From Epibacterium sp. Ofav1-8 (GTDB lineage Bacteria > Pseudomonadota > Alphaproteobacteria > Rhodobacterales > Rhodobacteraceae), in contig NZ_JAKRFD010000001.1 in assembly GCF_022348185.1 (NCBI RefSeq), positions 62,001-126,000 of the forward strand: a DNA stretch of 64,000 nt, given 5' to 3'. Of this stretch, positions 5,882 to 11,475 are shown one piece after another. The notes under the pieces were generated by a model. That model had not been told where the DNA came from and ran no database searches. It worked only from the letters and a program-made list of their open reading frames with translations. Numbering within the stretch: position 1 is the first letter of the stretch; each line of letters opens with the position of its first letter. Made by a program: the position numbers and the translations under genes.

Positions 5882-6718
5882 TTAGCCCTGATAGCTGGGC
5901 ATCTCTTCCATCTGCTGCTTCGTCATCATGGTATAGATGCGCAGATGACCGTCCCGTTCCTCGATATTCACATCGCCAAGCTGCAGCTCGACCGGCTTGG
6001 CGCCGATCCCGAGAAAGCCACCGACGTCGACGATCACCGCATCCACATCACCGGAGTTGTCCATGACGATGTCGGCCACTTCGCCGATCATCTCGTCATT
6101 GGCGTCAAAGGCACTGGCGCCGGTCAGCTCATCCGCTGTCAGCTCGTCCGAGGCGACGGCGGGCGGTGTGTCACCGCTGTCCTCGAACAGGCCGGTGACC
6201 TGATCGACCACCTGATCCGAGGCGGTGTCCGCATCGGTTTCGGTCTGGATGGCGCCTTCTGCAGACAGTTCAGAATGGGCGTTGATGGTGCCGGACATTT
6301 TATAGGACGGCGCGGTTTCCAACGCTTCGGTCGGTGCGTTCAGCACCAGGAAATAGCCATCAGCGCCCGCCTCGGAATTGCCGTCGCGCACGAATTTCAG
6401 CGCGTCCATGTCGACGGCGATCTGGTTTTCGCCAATGCCGAGAAAACCGCCAATGTCGACCAGCACCGCCTCGGCCTTGCCGTCCCGGCTCAGGATCACG
6501 TCATTGACCTCGCCGATGTCGCTCCAGCCATCCTGGACGCCATCCATGACGTCCTTGAGGGCGTCGTTCTCGGTTTGATAGATCCGCTTGCCCACAAAGG
6601 AGGAGGCATGGAACTCGGCCGGTCCCGCCTCGCTGCGGAACATGTCACTGGTCTCGGCGGCTGCCACGGGCAGCCCCATGGTCAGGATGAGGGACGTGGA
6701 AATCAAAAGATTTTTCAT
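5882..6718 (-). CDS. Secreted protein with two PRC-barrel domains
   Basis: A 278-residue product with a clear signal peptide (residues 1-20, cleavage near AAA-ET). Two PRC-barrel repeats can be seen: about residues 36-125 with VLVDIGGFLGIGENQI, and about 193-265 with VIVDVGGFLGIGAKPV. The linker between them is acidic and low in complexity. PRC barrels bind proteins or RNA and occur in photosynthetic reaction centres and RimM. Secreted double-PRC proteins are common in Rhodobacterales and not well characterised. An EcfG-type promoter lies upstream and a terminator follows, so it is a monocistronic stress gene. A periplasmic or outer-layer scaffold role is inference. Confidence 0.85.
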   Translation of the reverse strand: MKNLLISTSLILTMGLPVAAAETSDMFRSEAGPAEFHASSFVGKRIYQTENDALKDVMDGVQDGWSDIGEVNDVILSRDGKAEAVLVDIGGFLGIGENQIAVDMDALKFVRDGNSEAGADGYFLVLNAPTEALETAPSYKMSGTINAHSELSAEGAIQTETDADTASDQVVDQVTGLFEDSGDTPPAVASDELTADELTGASAFDANDEMIGEVADIVMDNSGDVDAVIVDVGGFLGIGAKPVELQLGDVNIEERDGHLRIYTMMTKQQMEEMPSYQG

Positions 6719-6772: not shown

Positions 6773-6797
6773 AACGTCGCACGGCCACAGGTGTTCC
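6773..6797 (-). promoter_or_regulatory. EcfG-type promoter for the PRC-barrel gene
   Basis: On the minus strand GGAAC (6797-6793), 16 bases, CGTT (6776-6773). Full consensus and identical spacing to the other EcfG-type sites in this window; the ATG is about 55 bases downstream. Confidence 0.75.
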
Positions 6798-6966: not shown

Positions 6967-8829
6967 TCAGCTGTCCTCGGCATCCACCCCGGCAGGCGCC
7001 GGGGCATCGGGCTCGAACTGCATCGCGTCGAAGGTCAGGCTGATGGCATAGCTGTCGGCCTCCTCCTGGACGGTCGGGCTGCATTCCAGCTGGCGGGCAA
7101 AGCCGCGGATCAACTGGCTGCCAAGCCCGGTGCCCTCTTCATCGAAGCTGGGGTCCTGAGCCGTGGAATTGGCGATCGTCAGGGTCACCCGGGTGTCGTC
7201 CTCCACGTTCAGCTTGAACGACACCCAGCGTTTGCCGGCACTGTCGACGCCAAGGTATTTCAGGGCGTTGGTGGCGGCTTCGACGGTGAGCAAGGCCAGG
7301 GGCACGGCCTGATCGGGATAGAGCACGACCGGCTCCAGGGAAATCTCGATATGCGGCACCGGGGCGGTGGTGGGCGCGAGCTCTGTCAGCGGGCGGATCA
7401 CGTCCCGCAGCAGGTCGTTTGCCTGAACCCGCCCCAGTTCTGACGCCTGGTACAGGGTCTGGTGCACGGTTGCCATGCTGGTCACCCGCCGGTTGACGGT
7501 CTGCAGCGCGTCAGCGGTGGTGGCATTTCGCGTGCGCCGGATCTGCATGGAAATGATCGACGAGATCAGTTGCAGATTGTTCTTCACCCGATGATGAAGC
7601 TCCTTGAGCAGCACATCCTTGTCATGCATCGCATCAAACAGATCGGCCTCGTCATGCAGCAGTTTCTCGGCCACCTGCATGAACTCGTTTTCGATGACCT
7701 CCATTTCATGCGGCATGAAAGACCGGGGCGGCGTTTTGGGCAGGGTGCGGGATCGGGCGAACTGCTGCATCTGGGTGGTGATCAGGCGCAGGTAGCGCAC
7801 CACCTGGCGATCCAGCGTGATGTAGATCAGCACCAGACTGACCAGCCACATCAGGATCGGAAACAGGGCAGGGGTCAGCACAAGCTGCCTGAACGGGCCG
7901 CTGTCCGCCGCAGCGTGGCGCCCATCCGGGTCCCAGCTGCCGACGACATAGAACCCGTTGCTCAGCACCGGAACGATCGAGAACAGCCGGGTCTCGCCGG
8001 CGGCGTTTTCGGTTTCAATGCGCCGTGGGTTGAGTTTGATCAGCTCCTTGAGCGGAATCCCGGCGGGCAGGCGTTCGCGTGCGGTTTCGCGAGCGCCGGA
8101 CGCGCTGAGGATGTCGCCATCCACGCTGATGGTCACGATATCGATGGGGCGATCCCCCAGTTTGACCTGAAACCCCTGATCGATCTTGTCATGGGGGACG
8201 TGGATGATCTGGTTGCCGATGAACCTGCCCTGTTCATTAAAGACCGGCTCGGAAATGATGAGAACGGCAGTGCCGGAAACGGGGCCGAAGGAATTCACGC
8301 GGACGTCACGCTTTGCGGTGAGCATCCAGTCGGAGAACCTGGGATTGTCGGAATAGTCGATCGTCAGATCGGCGGAGGCGCACTCCATGACCCCGTCCGT
8401 CGGCAGAAACCCCGCGAAGCTGTAGCGCTCTGCGGTGGCGTCGATGAAACGGGTCATCAGCGATTTGCAACGGGCCCGGTCCGCGGTCAGATCCGGCACG
8501 CTCAGCGCCAGGGTCTCTGCCGCTGAAAAGGCGGATTTGATGATCTCGCGCTCTTCCTGGGCGAATTCGGCGGTCAGGGCTTGCAGGCTGAGATTGTTGG
8601 ATTCGCGGACTTCAGCCTGCAGGCGGACGGTCTGATCGACCGCGATCAGCCCCAGCGGCACAAGCGCCCCGGACAGCAGTATGGCCAGCCGGACGGACAG
8701 GCTTCGCGTCCAGCCAAAGGGGCGCGATGCGCCCGGCGAGACATGTGTCCCGTCATCCGAAACGTCAGCGGAGGCGTCCTGACCCTGGCCCCGAAACAGG
8801 GCCAGGGAGGGAAAGTTCATTCGGTTCAC
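6967..8829 (-). CDS. Membrane sensor histidine kinase, HisKA_2/HWE type, of the general stress response
   Basis: Likely the sensor that controls PhyR phosphorylation. The 620 residues run: cytoplasmic N-terminus; TM1 about 45-66; an extracytoplasmic sensory domain of roughly 250 residues (Cache-like in length and position); TM2 about 317-339; the phosphoacceptor region LLKELHHRVKNNLQLISSII (about 407-426, His412/413); then an HATPase domain with Asn521 in EAATNALKYL and a G-box EGTGLGSQLI (about 565). The GTG start overlaps the ecfG stop (GTGA); an ATG three codons later is possible. It is co-transcribed with nepR and ecfG. Family knowledge: PhyR systems are driven by this kinase class, often encoded beside phyR. 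The ligand is unknown. Confidence 0.9.
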   Translation of the reverse strand: MNRMNFPSLALFRGQGQDASADVSDDGTHVSPGASRPFGWTRSLSVRLAILLSGALVPLGLIAVDQTVRLQAEVRESNNLSLQALTAEFAQEEREIIKSAFSAAETLALSVPDLTADRARCKSLMTRFIDATAERYSFAGFLPTDGVMECASADLTIDYSDNPRFSDWMLTAKRDVRVNSFGPVSGTAVLIISEPVFNEQGRFIGNQIIHVPHDKIDQGFQVKLGDRPIDIVTISVDGDILSASGARETARERLPAGIPLKELIKLNPRRIETENAAGETRLFSIVPVLSNGFYVVGSWDPDGRHAAADSGPFRQLVLTPALFPILMWLVSLVLIYITLDRQVVRYLRLITTQMQQFARSRTLPKTPPRSFMPHEMEVIENEFMQVAEKLLHDEADLFDAMHDKDVLLKELHHRVKNNLQLISSIISMQIRRTRNATTADALQTVNRRVTSMATVHQTLYQASELGRVQANDLLRDVIRPLTELAPTTAPVPHIEISLEPVVLYPDQAVPLALLTVEAATNALKYLGVDSAGKRWVSFKLNVEDDTRVTLTIANSTAQDPSFDEEGTGLGSQLIRGFARQLECSPTVQEEADSYAISLTFDAMQFEPDAPAPAGVDAEDS

Positions 8830-9383: not shown

Positions 9384-9577
9384 TATTCGGCCTCCTCCTG
9401 CGACTGGGAGGTCGCGCCGGTGGTGCCCGACGCATCCGCGACGGGGATCTTGTCCAGACGATCAAGTAGCTCCATCAGATGCGGCGGCAATTCCGCATTC
9501 GCATCCTCGTCGAAAACCCGCTTCAGGTTCTCGTCGATCAGAGTGTCCCATGGCTGTTTCTGAGGCCTGTTTGCCAT
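9383..9577 (-). CDS. nepR: Anti-sigma factor NepR
   Basis: A 64-residue protein that holds EcfG inactive and is sequestered by PhyR~P. It has the NepR core: WDTLIDENLKRVFDE (helix 1) followed by LPPHLMELLDRLD (helix 2), then a disordered Ser/Thr/Gln/Glu tail. I start it at ATG 9577 because GGGAG lies 7 bases upstream and NepR homologues begin close to this point; a GTG at 9595 would add six residues. It sits first in the nepR-ecfG-kinase operon, opposite phyR, which is the classical arrangement of this locus. Confidence 0.92.
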   Translation of the reverse strand: MANRPQKQPWDTLIDENLKRVFDEDANAELPPHLMELLDRLDKIPVADASGTTGATSQSQEEAE

Positions 9578-9631
9578 TCGTCTCTCCCGCAACACCTATA
9601 CCTTCAGGCGCGATAAAATTTTCATTTCCAT

Positions 9632-9662
9632 GGAACAAACGCCCAAAGCATGCGTTTGTTCC
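9632..9662. promoter_or_regulatory. Palindromic double EcfG promoter driving phyR (+) and nepR-ecfG (-)
   Basis: An 11-bp inverted repeat (GGAACAAACGC at 9632-9642, GCGTTTGTTCC at 9652-9662) with a 9-base centre. Read on either strand it gives GGAAC, 16 bases, CGTTT: -35 at 9632-9636 and -10 at 9653-9657 on plus; -35 at 9662-9658 and -10 at 9641-9637 on minus. Each arm therefore supplies the -35 of one promoter and the -10 of the other. The phyR start is 34 bases past its -10, and nepR about 60 bases past its own. Confidence 0.85.
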
Positions 9663-9690
9663 GAGAAATATTGGTGACAGGAGAAAAAAA

Positions 9691-10512
9691 TTGTCGACCC
9701 CCACCACTGGACAAGCCCTGACTCTGTCGGACCTGATCGGACCCCACCTGCCGTACCTGCGGCGTTACGCCAGAGCGCTCACCGGGGCGCAGCAATCCGG
9801 TGATACCTATGCGGCCTCCACGCTGGAGGCGATCCTGGCGGATCCAAGCTGCTTTGATGCCCAGGCACATGGCGGAAAAGTGGCACTTTTCAAGGTTTTC
9901 CACACGCTCTGGAGCAGTTCCGGACAGCCGGTGCCGGACACGGATGACGGTCCCCGGGCCCGGGCGCTGCAACATCTTTCGGCGCTGACCCCGAACACCC
10001 GCGAAGCGCTGCTTCTGAATACGGTGGAGGCCTTCTCCATCAGCGAAATCGCGGAAATCATGGACATCGACAGCGAAGAGGCCGGCCGCCTGATCCAGCT
10101 GGCGCATGATGAAATGCAGCAATCCGTCTCGGGCAAGATCATGATTATCGAGGATGAGGCGATCATCGCGATGGATCTTGAAGGGATCTGTACGATGATG
10201 GGTCACGAGGTCACCGGGATTGCCCGCACCCACAAGGCGGCGGTGAAACTGGGGCATGAGCAACGGCCCGATCTGATCCTGGCGGATATTCAGCTTGCCG
10301 ATAACTCCAGCGGCATCGATGCGGTTGCGGACCTGCTCGAAGATCTGGGTGACGTGCCGGTGATTTTCATCACGGCCTTCCCCGAGCGTCTGCTGACGGG
10401 TGAGCGGCATGAACCGGCGTTCATGATCGCCAAACCCTATGTTCCCGACCAGGTCATTTCCGCGATCAGCCAGGCCATGTTCTTTGCCTCGACCGATACG
10501 CTGACCAGCTGA
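9691..10512 (+). CDS. phyR: Response regulator PhyR with sigma-factor-like output domain
   Basis: Anti-anti-sigma factor of the general stress response: when phosphorylated, its EcfG-like domain captures NepR. The 273 residues comprise a sigma-like N-terminal part (PHLPYLRRYARALTGAQQSG at 18-37, sigma4-like to about 140) and a C-terminal receiver with acidic pocket Glu154/Asp155, phosphoacceptor Asp199 (ILADI), Thr228 (FITAF) and Lys248 (AKPY). The start is an unusual TTG at 9691. It is preceded by AGGAG at 9679-9683, and no in-frame ATG or GTG lies nearby, so the weak start codon looks genuine. Transcribed from the shared palindromic promoter and ended by a hairpin at 10542. Confidence 0.95.
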   Translation: MSTPTTGQALTLSDLIGPHLPYLRRYARALTGAQQSGDTYAASTLEAILADPSCFDAQAHGGKVALFKVFHTLWSSSGQPVPDTDDGPRARALQHLSALTPNTREALLLNTVEAFSISEIAEIMDIDSEEAGRLIQLAHDEMQQSVSGKIMIIEDEAIIAMDLEGICTMMGHEVTGIARTHKAAVKLGHEQRPDLILADIQLADNSSGIDAVADLLEDLGDVPVIFITAFPERLLTGERHEPAFMIAKPYVPDQVISAISQAMFFASTDTLTS

Positions 10513-10684: not shown

Positions 10685-11182
10685 CTACGAGGCAGACAAA
10701 GCACGCAGCATCCAAGCCGCTTTTTCGTGGAAGGCCGCGCGTTCGGTGGCCAGGTCGCCCGTCACCATGTCCTTGCGCTGTTCGGCCAACTCGATCAGCG
10801 CGTGCAGGCGGTGGGCCAAACGCATATGGTCCTTTTCAAGATCTTTGCACATCTCCCCGGCGCTCGGCATCTGGCCGAGGTCGTCGACAATGCTGTCGGA
10901 CAAGACGCCGGTGATCTTGCCGGAGGTCAGGTGGCCGATGGCGCGGATGCGCTCTGCCAGCTCATCTGCCGCGGCAAACATGTTCTGATACTGCTCTTCG
11001 GTCAGATTGTGCAGCGAGAAGAACAGCGGTCCCTCGACGTTCCAGTGGTAGATGTGGGTTTTCAGCGTCAGGCGGTAGGTATCCGCCAGCACATCGCTCA
11101 GCCCTTCGGCGATGGCGGTGGTGTCCCGGACGCCGGTCTCGACAGGTGCGATTTGCGGTTTGACGTTCAATGCGGTGCTCAT
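10685..11182 (-). CDS. dps: Dps-family DNA-binding ferritin-like protein
   Basis: Stores iron, consumes peroxide and compacts DNA during starvation or oxidative stress. The 165-residue length is normal. The ferroxidase pattern is visible: THIYHWNVEGPLFFSLHNLTEEQY (about residues 42-65) carries the conserved His and Trp, followed by AADELAERIRAIGHL, the second metal-ligand helix. The N-terminal tail is short with one Lys. AAAGGA lies upstream of the ATG. The DUF1328 gene ends 51 bases upstream on the same strand, and the EcfG-type promoter at 11451-11475 would serve both. Dps is a typical member of the EcfG regulon in alphaproteobacteria. Confidence 0.93.
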   Translation of the reverse strand: MSTALNVKPQIAPVETGVRDTTAIAEGLSDVLADTYRLTLKTHIYHWNVEGPLFFSLHNLTEEQYQNMFAAADELAERIRAIGHLTSGKITGVLSDSIVDDLGQMPSAGEMCKDLEKDHMRLAHRLHALIELAEQRKDMVTGDLATERAAFHEKAAWMLRALSAS

Positions 11183-11233: not shown

Positions 11234-11395
11234 TCAGCGGCGAACTGCCCGAAAGATCAACGCGGCGACGAACATCACCAGGAAGATGAAAAAGAGGATC
11301 TGCGCGATCCCGGCCGAGGCGCTGGCGATACCGCCAAAGCCAAAGACGGCCGCGATCAGTGCGATCACCAGGAATGTCAGGGCCCAACCAAGCAT
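11234..11395 (-). CDS. DUF1328 small membrane protein (53 aa)
   Basis: A 53-residue protein starting [20 protein letters not shown] and continuing [20 protein letters not shown], which makes two hydrophobic helices with a short glycine-rich turn, and a basic end FRAVRR. This is the DUF1328 (YtjA-like) signature. Function is unknown; homologues are often stress-induced. An AAAGGAGG ribosome site lies 6 bases before the ATG, an EcfG-type promoter about 55 bases upstream, and dps follows on the same strand. Confidence 0.9.
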
Positions 11396-11450: not shown

Positions 11451-11475
11451 AACGGCGCGCGGCGCGAATTGTTCC
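11451..11475 (-). promoter_or_regulatory. EcfG-type promoter for DUF1328-dps
   Basis: On the minus strand GGAAC (11475-11471), 16 bases, CGTT (11454-11451). Full consensus and the same spacing as the other sites. Confidence 0.75.

Follow-up and report, generated by a model that had tools for sequence, protein, structure and literature searches.

The window, that is, the whole 64,000-nucleotide stretch of DNA considered here, contains a 31-bp palindrome lying between the divergently oriented genes phyR (TTG start at 9691, + strand) and nepR-ecfG (ATG start at 9577, - strand), with cognate EcfG, NepR and PhyR all encoded beside it (Table 1). The TTG start of phyR is preceded by a ribosome site, GGAG, at 9680-9683. 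For nepR, the ATG at 9577 is the preferred start, with a GTG at 9595 likewise open. The HWE/HisKA_2 histidine kinase, judging from its place and its family, probably is the PhyR kinase. Also near these GSR genes is a small stress island of PRC-barrel, ferritin-like (Dps-like) and DUF1328 proteins (5885-6718, 10688-11182 and 11237-11395), where the PRC and DUF1328 genes are each preceded by a strict EcfG-like site, at 6773-6797 (-) and 11451-11475 (-), respectively.

Table 1. Genes and predicted promoter features at the phyR/nepR-ecfG locus (positions within the window).
Feature	Position	Strand	Remarks
HWE/HisKA_2 histidine kinase	6967..8829	-	PF07568, PF07536
ecfG, ECF sigma factor, 185 aa	8826..9383	-	PF04542, PF08281
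nepR, anti-sigma factor, 64 aa	9383..9577	-	PF18557
Nested bidirectional EcfG promoter element (predicted)	9632..9662	.	31-bp palindrome, 11-bp arms, 9-bp centre
GGAAC, predicted phyR promoter -35	9632..9636	+	Consensus match
CGTT, predicted nepR-ecfG promoter -10	9638..9641	-	Spacer 16; start site probably ~9632-9629
CGTT, predicted phyR promoter -10	9653..9656	+	Spacer 16; start site probably ~9662-9665
GGAAC, predicted nepR-ecfG promoter -35	9658..9662	-	Consensus match
phyR, anti-anti-sigma response regulator, 273 aa	9691..10512	+	PF22029, PF22233, PF00072; sigma-like and receiver domains

The palindrome, GGAACAAACGCCCAAAGCATGCGTTTGTTCC in full, can be divided into arm, centre and arm as GGAACAAACGC-CCAAAGCAT-GCGTTTGTTCC, with both 11-bp arms perfect. 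Each strand carries a perfect EcfG consensus, GGAAC-N16-CGTT, at 9632-9656 (+) and 9638-9662 (-), and on both strands what is found matches an EcfG-type promoter, i.e., GGAAC, a spacer of 16-17 and C/G-GTT, which is the consensus given in passages of PMC12148442 and PMC3892343. Each arm includes one promoter's -35, then one base, then the other promoter's -10 reversed, -35 GGAAC and -10 CGTT being near reverse complements. Between the two -10 boxes there are 11 bp; neither -10 is shared, and each abuts the -35 of the opposed promoter. The initial annotation had described just such a palindrome, with two opposed consensus promoters in register and with each arm doubling as the -35 of one and the -10 of the other, and the coordinates agree with that description, one base separating the two boxes.

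Transcription usually starts 6-9 bp beyond the -10. The predicted start sites are at the element's outer ends, which would keep the two RNAs from overlapping. These starts would be roughly 30-36 bp apart, with predicted leaders of approximately 26-29 nt for phyR and approximately 52-55 nt for nepR.

Conservation within Rhodobacterales and chance expectation

PhyR was found in 110 of 158 evenly drawn genomes of the order, with 122 hits which, upon dropping two incomplete matches, correspond to 120 phyR loci in 108 genomes. Within 350 bp upstream of each, a motif was sought that consists of a GGAAC -35, a spacer of 16 or 17 and a C/G-GTT -10, each promoter being allowed no more than one mismatch. 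Allowing C or G as first -10 base follows PMC12148442; with C alone, the pair is present in 87 of the 120 loci. Counting any pair, 88/120 loci are nested at span 31-33 and 23 possess a pair of span 27, with 12 holding both and hence 11 further loci displaying a span-27 pair but none at 31-33 (five mismatch-free, five with one and one with two mismatches in all). Filing each locus instead by its best pair yields 82 at 31-33, 16 at 27 and 1 back-to-back. Neither span is seen in 21 of the 120, i.e., eight with a site on the nepR side only, three on the phyR side only, seven with both sites elsewhere (two of them, L182 and L191, at span 28) and three with no site. The loci having a nepR-side EcfG-like promoter without a phyR-side one are L195, L202, L217, L223, L236, L263, L287 and L288, and this excess of one-sided loci on the nepR side (8/120 vs 3/120) is as if ecfG autoregulation were more strictly kept than that of phyR. 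A match to the NepR profile is present divergently within 450 bp in 117 of the 120 loci, and the three without NepR are not nested.

A conditional test does not choose the pair but instead starts with a strict promoter on one side and then locates an opposed GGAAC. Among the loci having a strict nepR-side promoter (57/120), 51 show the opposed GGAAC at span 31-33, and elsewhere between spans 6 and 139 there is none. Given a strict phyR-side promoter (63/120 loci), it is at span 31-33 in 60 of the 63 and at other spans in three. All 51 and all 60 of these partners possess a -10 within one mismatch.

Close relatives, among which it had been proposed that loss of the palindrome be looked for, keep it as well. 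That is, among 79 loci (the best 80 of 376 confirmed relatives, a set probably sharing species with the order sample, less one locus with 69 bp upstream), 75 have a pair of span 31-33, two of span 27 and two something other. The nested element, as predicted from its motifs, is much more general than one window, and the earlier reading of one element as two opposed EcfG promoters, while still a prediction, finds strong support in position, in register and in conservation.

For a null set, the 120 Rhodobacterales regions upstream of phyR were dinucleotide-shuffled (2,400 shuffles) and scored by the same any-pair rule; a pair of span 31-33 was found 0 times, of span 27 32 times and back-to-back three times. 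The nested pair, at 0/2,400 shuffles vs 88/120 real loci for span 31-33, exceeds chance. A single consensus match, by contrast, is uninformative, since strict sites number 68 in the 4.76-Mb genome, which is fewer than the 118 seen with a reversed control pattern; genome-wide matches accordingly were dropped as support. Nor are opposed GGAAC/GTTCC pairs of spans 27-33 enriched over the whole genome (40 vs 67 in the control). Of these 40 pairs, 14 possess on each strand a -10 with no more than one mismatch, and the phyR site alone does so at span 31-33; besides it, 11 of the remaining 13 are of span 27 or 28. At those two spans the opposed -35 supplies the GTT for free, making span-27 matches with mismatches weak. 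A further mismatch-free, span-27 EcfG-like pair exists in the window's own genome, at G000:C31:204851-204877.

Fine structure of the element

Pooling both Rhodobacterales sets and counting identical elements once yields 151 distinct nested elements, with spans of 31 (22 elements), 32 (82) and 33 (47). In 138 of these, spacers of 16 or 17 leave a linker of 1-2 bases from a -10 to the opposed -35, and in the other 13 one or both linkers are of 0 or 3 bases. Each side has GGAAC in 151/151, every departure being found in the -10, though this invariance is partly built in because elements were picked by motif, with spacers of 16-17 and no more than one mismatch. Among the 82 best-pair loci of span 31-33, the -10 is consensus on both sides in 47, on the phyR side only in 21, on the nepR side only in six and on neither in eight. 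Such departures from consensus fit with what is described in part of a Sphingopyxis study, in which the -35 of GSR promoters is well kept and the -10 is flexible (PMC7083833).

In six close sequences (the window, L009-L012 and L178), 20/20 arm columns are invariant vs 0/11 central ones. Adding L013 and L014, the PhyR proteins of which are closer than that of L178, leaves the left arm still invariant but breaks the right one, L014 having TGTT as phyR -10 instead of CGTT and L013 one extra T. The distance from element to gene varies over the 82 loci, from 65 to 159 bp to the start of the NepR profile and from 28 to 72 bp to the phyR match; that these distances vary while the element does not was counted in favor of the bidirectional-promoter reading. 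Complementarity of paired positions over the 151 elements mostly is about what independent columns would give, with an exception at position 6 of span 31 (0.86 vs 0.60) and, to a lesser degree, an excess at 7 and 11. Lacking, for the most part, an excess over independent columns, arm covariation was dropped as a demonstration either that the arms pair or that they form an operator, and the palindrome would seem to be mainly two facing copies of one promoter consensus. To the right of the nepR-side -35, i.e., upstream of it, there is in addition an A-rich tract (positions 36-39; A at 62-81% for span 32 and 74-78% for span 33) with no mirror on the phyR side, which could be an upstream element favoring nepR-ecfG or instead could be the first transcribed bases of phyR.

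The second form of nesting, of span 27 (spacer 16) or 28 (spacer 17), places the GTT of each -10 inside the opposed GTTCC. In GGAAC-N17-GTTCC, that is, ten bases supply each strand with 8 or 9 of 9 consensus positions. Span-27/28 pairs are cheap by chance, and those with mismatches are weak.

Might the dyad be something other than a promoter pair? It could be supposed that one promoter alone works, the other being a vestige or a coincidence of symmetry, and indeed one side only matches fully in 27 of the 82 best-pair loci at span 31-33 while 11 of the 120 loci keep one side only. This would seem to be very unlikely, nevertheless, given results of the conditional test (51/57 and 60/63) as well as GGAAC on both sides of all 151 elements, albeit elements picked at one mismatch or fewer. 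Less likely still is that the palindrome serves as operator for a dimeric regulator rather than as two promoters, a reading for which the long, near-perfect dyad of the window and of several relatives speaks. The distance between half-sites is not constant, however, with spans of 31, 32 and 33 seen where no spacing condition was set, and arm spacings over both forms of 27, 28, 31, 32 and 33 bp. In addition, the arms equal the EcfG consensus and pair mostly as independent columns do, although independent columns by themselves would not exclude an operator.

Other orders and evolutionary history

In a sample of the class, PhyR was found in 54 of 289 genomes, providing 57 loci outside of Rhodobacterales. 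Paired sites are back-to-back in 11 of these, of span 31-33 in four and of span 27 in nine (three without mismatch, all from family f29). Of the 33 that are unpaired, nine have both sites elsewhere, five a nepR-side site only, 10 a phyR-side site only and nine none. The four loci of span 31-33 are three from family f34 and one from a lone genome (L104). Within its own order, family f34 displays span 32 in 4/5 loci, with one mismatch each, and family f29 (11 hits, from 11/16 genomes of its order) is nested in 9/11, with six pairs of span 27 and three of span 28 (spacer 17), one of the latter three having a mismatch. For the order to which family f4 belongs, a back-to-back pair is present in 24 of 30 loci (the best of 49 hits), the gap from GTTCC to GGAAC, measured between the two -35 boxes, being mostly 5-10 bp; the 19 other hits are outside of that count, and the class sample includes two of these, L115 and L303. 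Family f91 has a back-to-back arrangement in its three close PhyR loci and not in its five remote ones. Four loci (L115, L172, L174 and L177) have three -35-like boxes upstream of phyR, that is, a back-to-back pair along with a GTTCC that forms span 27 with the phyR-side GGAAC, as though the two geometries were present together. Close juxtaposition of two predicted EcfG promoters is in any case recurrent, with nesting predominating in Rhodobacterales, f34 and f29.

On a PhyR tree of 84 proteins, built by a quick method, at least four changes between nested and back-to-back are required, or two if five groups are counted. By AU tests, a tree uniting the nested groups in a single clade is not rejected (p of 0.605, 0.661 and 0.652), and trees so constrained scored above the free tree. 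As a single clade is allowed by these tests, the number of independent origins of nesting was dropped as a result.

This history is what an evolutionary lock-in would draw upon, which is a rival to function and not to architecture. Both promoters, that is, would be real and overlapping but without regulatory value, persisting by descent because neither can shift without destroying the other. Common descent does account for most of the Rhodobacterales data, back-to-back promoters are what other orders use (24/30 in the order of f4, from the best of 49 hits), nesting is cheap given that GGAAC and CGTT are near reverse complements, and the AU tests leave a single nested clade standing (p of 0.605-0.661). 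Such a lock-in falls just short of an even chance. Against it are the two span classes (27/28 and 31-33) together with nesting in f34 (4/5) and f29 (9/11), which may suggest that nesting has been used or rebuilt more than once, the tree being no proof of this, plus one-sided losses which, at eight and three of 120, are uncommon but do occur.

Proposed mechanism and known systems

The explanation which best covers these data as a whole, and which may be held with considerable confidence, is that one element constitutes two divergent EcfG promoters that are mutually exclusive and ratio-setting. EcfG-RNA polymerase would bind this element in either orientation, expressing phyR one way and nepR-ecfG the other, with an arm supplying one promoter's -35 and, usually one or two bases further in, the other promoter's -10. 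That the element is used as two promoters is, from its motifs, very likely, and mutual exclusion of two polymerases is likely from the geometry. Both holoenzymes would need the same 31-33 bp and so should exclude each other; an EcfG-polymerase set for phyR, that is, would cover the entire nepR promoter and vice versa, so exclusive binding is to be expected. Total output from the shared site would be capped, and PhyR and NepR/EcfG would stay in step while the autoregulatory loop switches on.

The PhyR-NepR-EcfG partner switch works by titration, and its behaviour consequently depends upon the ratio of its parts. A single element would set the PhyR:NepR/EcfG ratio by geometry, and that element is kept in most of the order loci sampled. 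As both directions use one site, the phyR:nepR-ecfG ratio in the model is set by relative promoter quality, independent of free EcfG. In a two-state model with a 5-fold affinity gap, rising sigma takes the ratio for separate promoters from 4.96 down to 1.04, whereas with exclusive promoters the ratio is constant at 5.00, with the weaker promoter capped (0.165 vs 0.952). At low occupancy, the designs hardly differ, separate promoters likewise giving a nearly constant ratio, which agrees with part of a study of five E. coli bidirectional promoters, where there is no competition at basal activity (PMC12825309). The fixed phyR:nepR ratio suggested by the initial annotation thus holds within the exclusive-binding model, independent of sigma, but at low occupancy it is not peculiar to exclusion, and the E. 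coli result counts against it as well. Candidates for the high-occupancy regime would be, under full stress, those EcfG promoters with a match on either side of the element. Exclusion is in addition unnecessary for the switch as such, given back-to-back promoters in 24/30 loci of the f4 order and 11/57 of the class sample.

A stronger version is that the element is a selected, constant-ratio device, holding PhyR:NepR/EcfG transcription constant at any active sigma and lowering noise in the loop, and that it represents an ECF class of bidirectional promoter that rests on -35/-10 near-complementarity and has been used or rebuilt in several alphaproteobacterial lineages, in abutting (31-33) and GTT-sharing (27-28) forms. 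Selection for ratio is possible, but this version as a whole is rather unlikely. The mutually exclusive promoter pair would be a concrete and easily testable case of polymerase mutual exclusion as regulatory design, for which back-to-back relatives vs nested loci offer a natural comparison.

The likeness to phyR/nepR-ecfG loci of other Alphaproteobacteria is one of genes, divergent order and a promoter on each side (PMC4814048, PMC8103513, PMC3892343). Passages of the first two papers describe nepR-ecfG and phyR as usually divergent, each with a GSR-dependent promoter, and suggest that their co-regulation keeps stoichiometry (PMC4814048, PMC8103513). Measurements reported for Rhizobium etli show that phyR and ecfG1 expression depends on EcfG1 (PMC3892343), and in Rubellimicrobium thermophilum GGAAC-N16-17-C/GGTT promoters are predicted at two GSR loci (PMC12148442). 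Within those passages, the Alphaproteobacterial loci are described as two promoters or units, with complete overlap unmentioned (PMC4814048, PMC8103513, PMC3892343). Among open papers, as gone through by titles and the starts of abstracts and with subscription journals mostly outside, no description of overlapping phyR/nepR promoters was found, though a figure of PMC12148442 may show overlap. With hrpL-hrpJ of Pseudomonas syringae, the element shares an ECF sigma holoenzyme which, at one divergent promoter, affects the other; what is described in part of that paper is adjacent sigma54 and ECF elements with one-way repression rather than one element and one sigma acting both ways (PMC5263251).

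In its architecture the element is like the E. coli bidirectional promoters of Warman and colleagues (PMC12825309), i.e., a short, pseudo-symmetric sequence, divergent RNAs and two polymerase orientations with one binding blocking the other, here as predicted from sequence. From the portion of that study consulted, strengthening one RNA represses the other, competition occurs only when promoters are strong, polymerase concentration is without effect on the ratio, and interference reduces noise (PMC12825309). The E. coli set involves sigma70 and symmetry within a shared -10, where 18, 10 or 23 bp commonly separate the two starts, while here there is instead an ECF sigma, -35/-10 symmetry and, at span 31-33, no shared -10, with start distances that, as predicted, would differ from 18, 10 and 23 bp (PMC12825309). 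Unlike with that set, moreover, the two genes here control the sigma factor itself (PMC12825309). The basis of bidirectional promoters would in this way be extended from -10 symmetry to the -35/-10 symmetry of an alternative sigma, and the nested element is, then, a new geometry of a known element kind.
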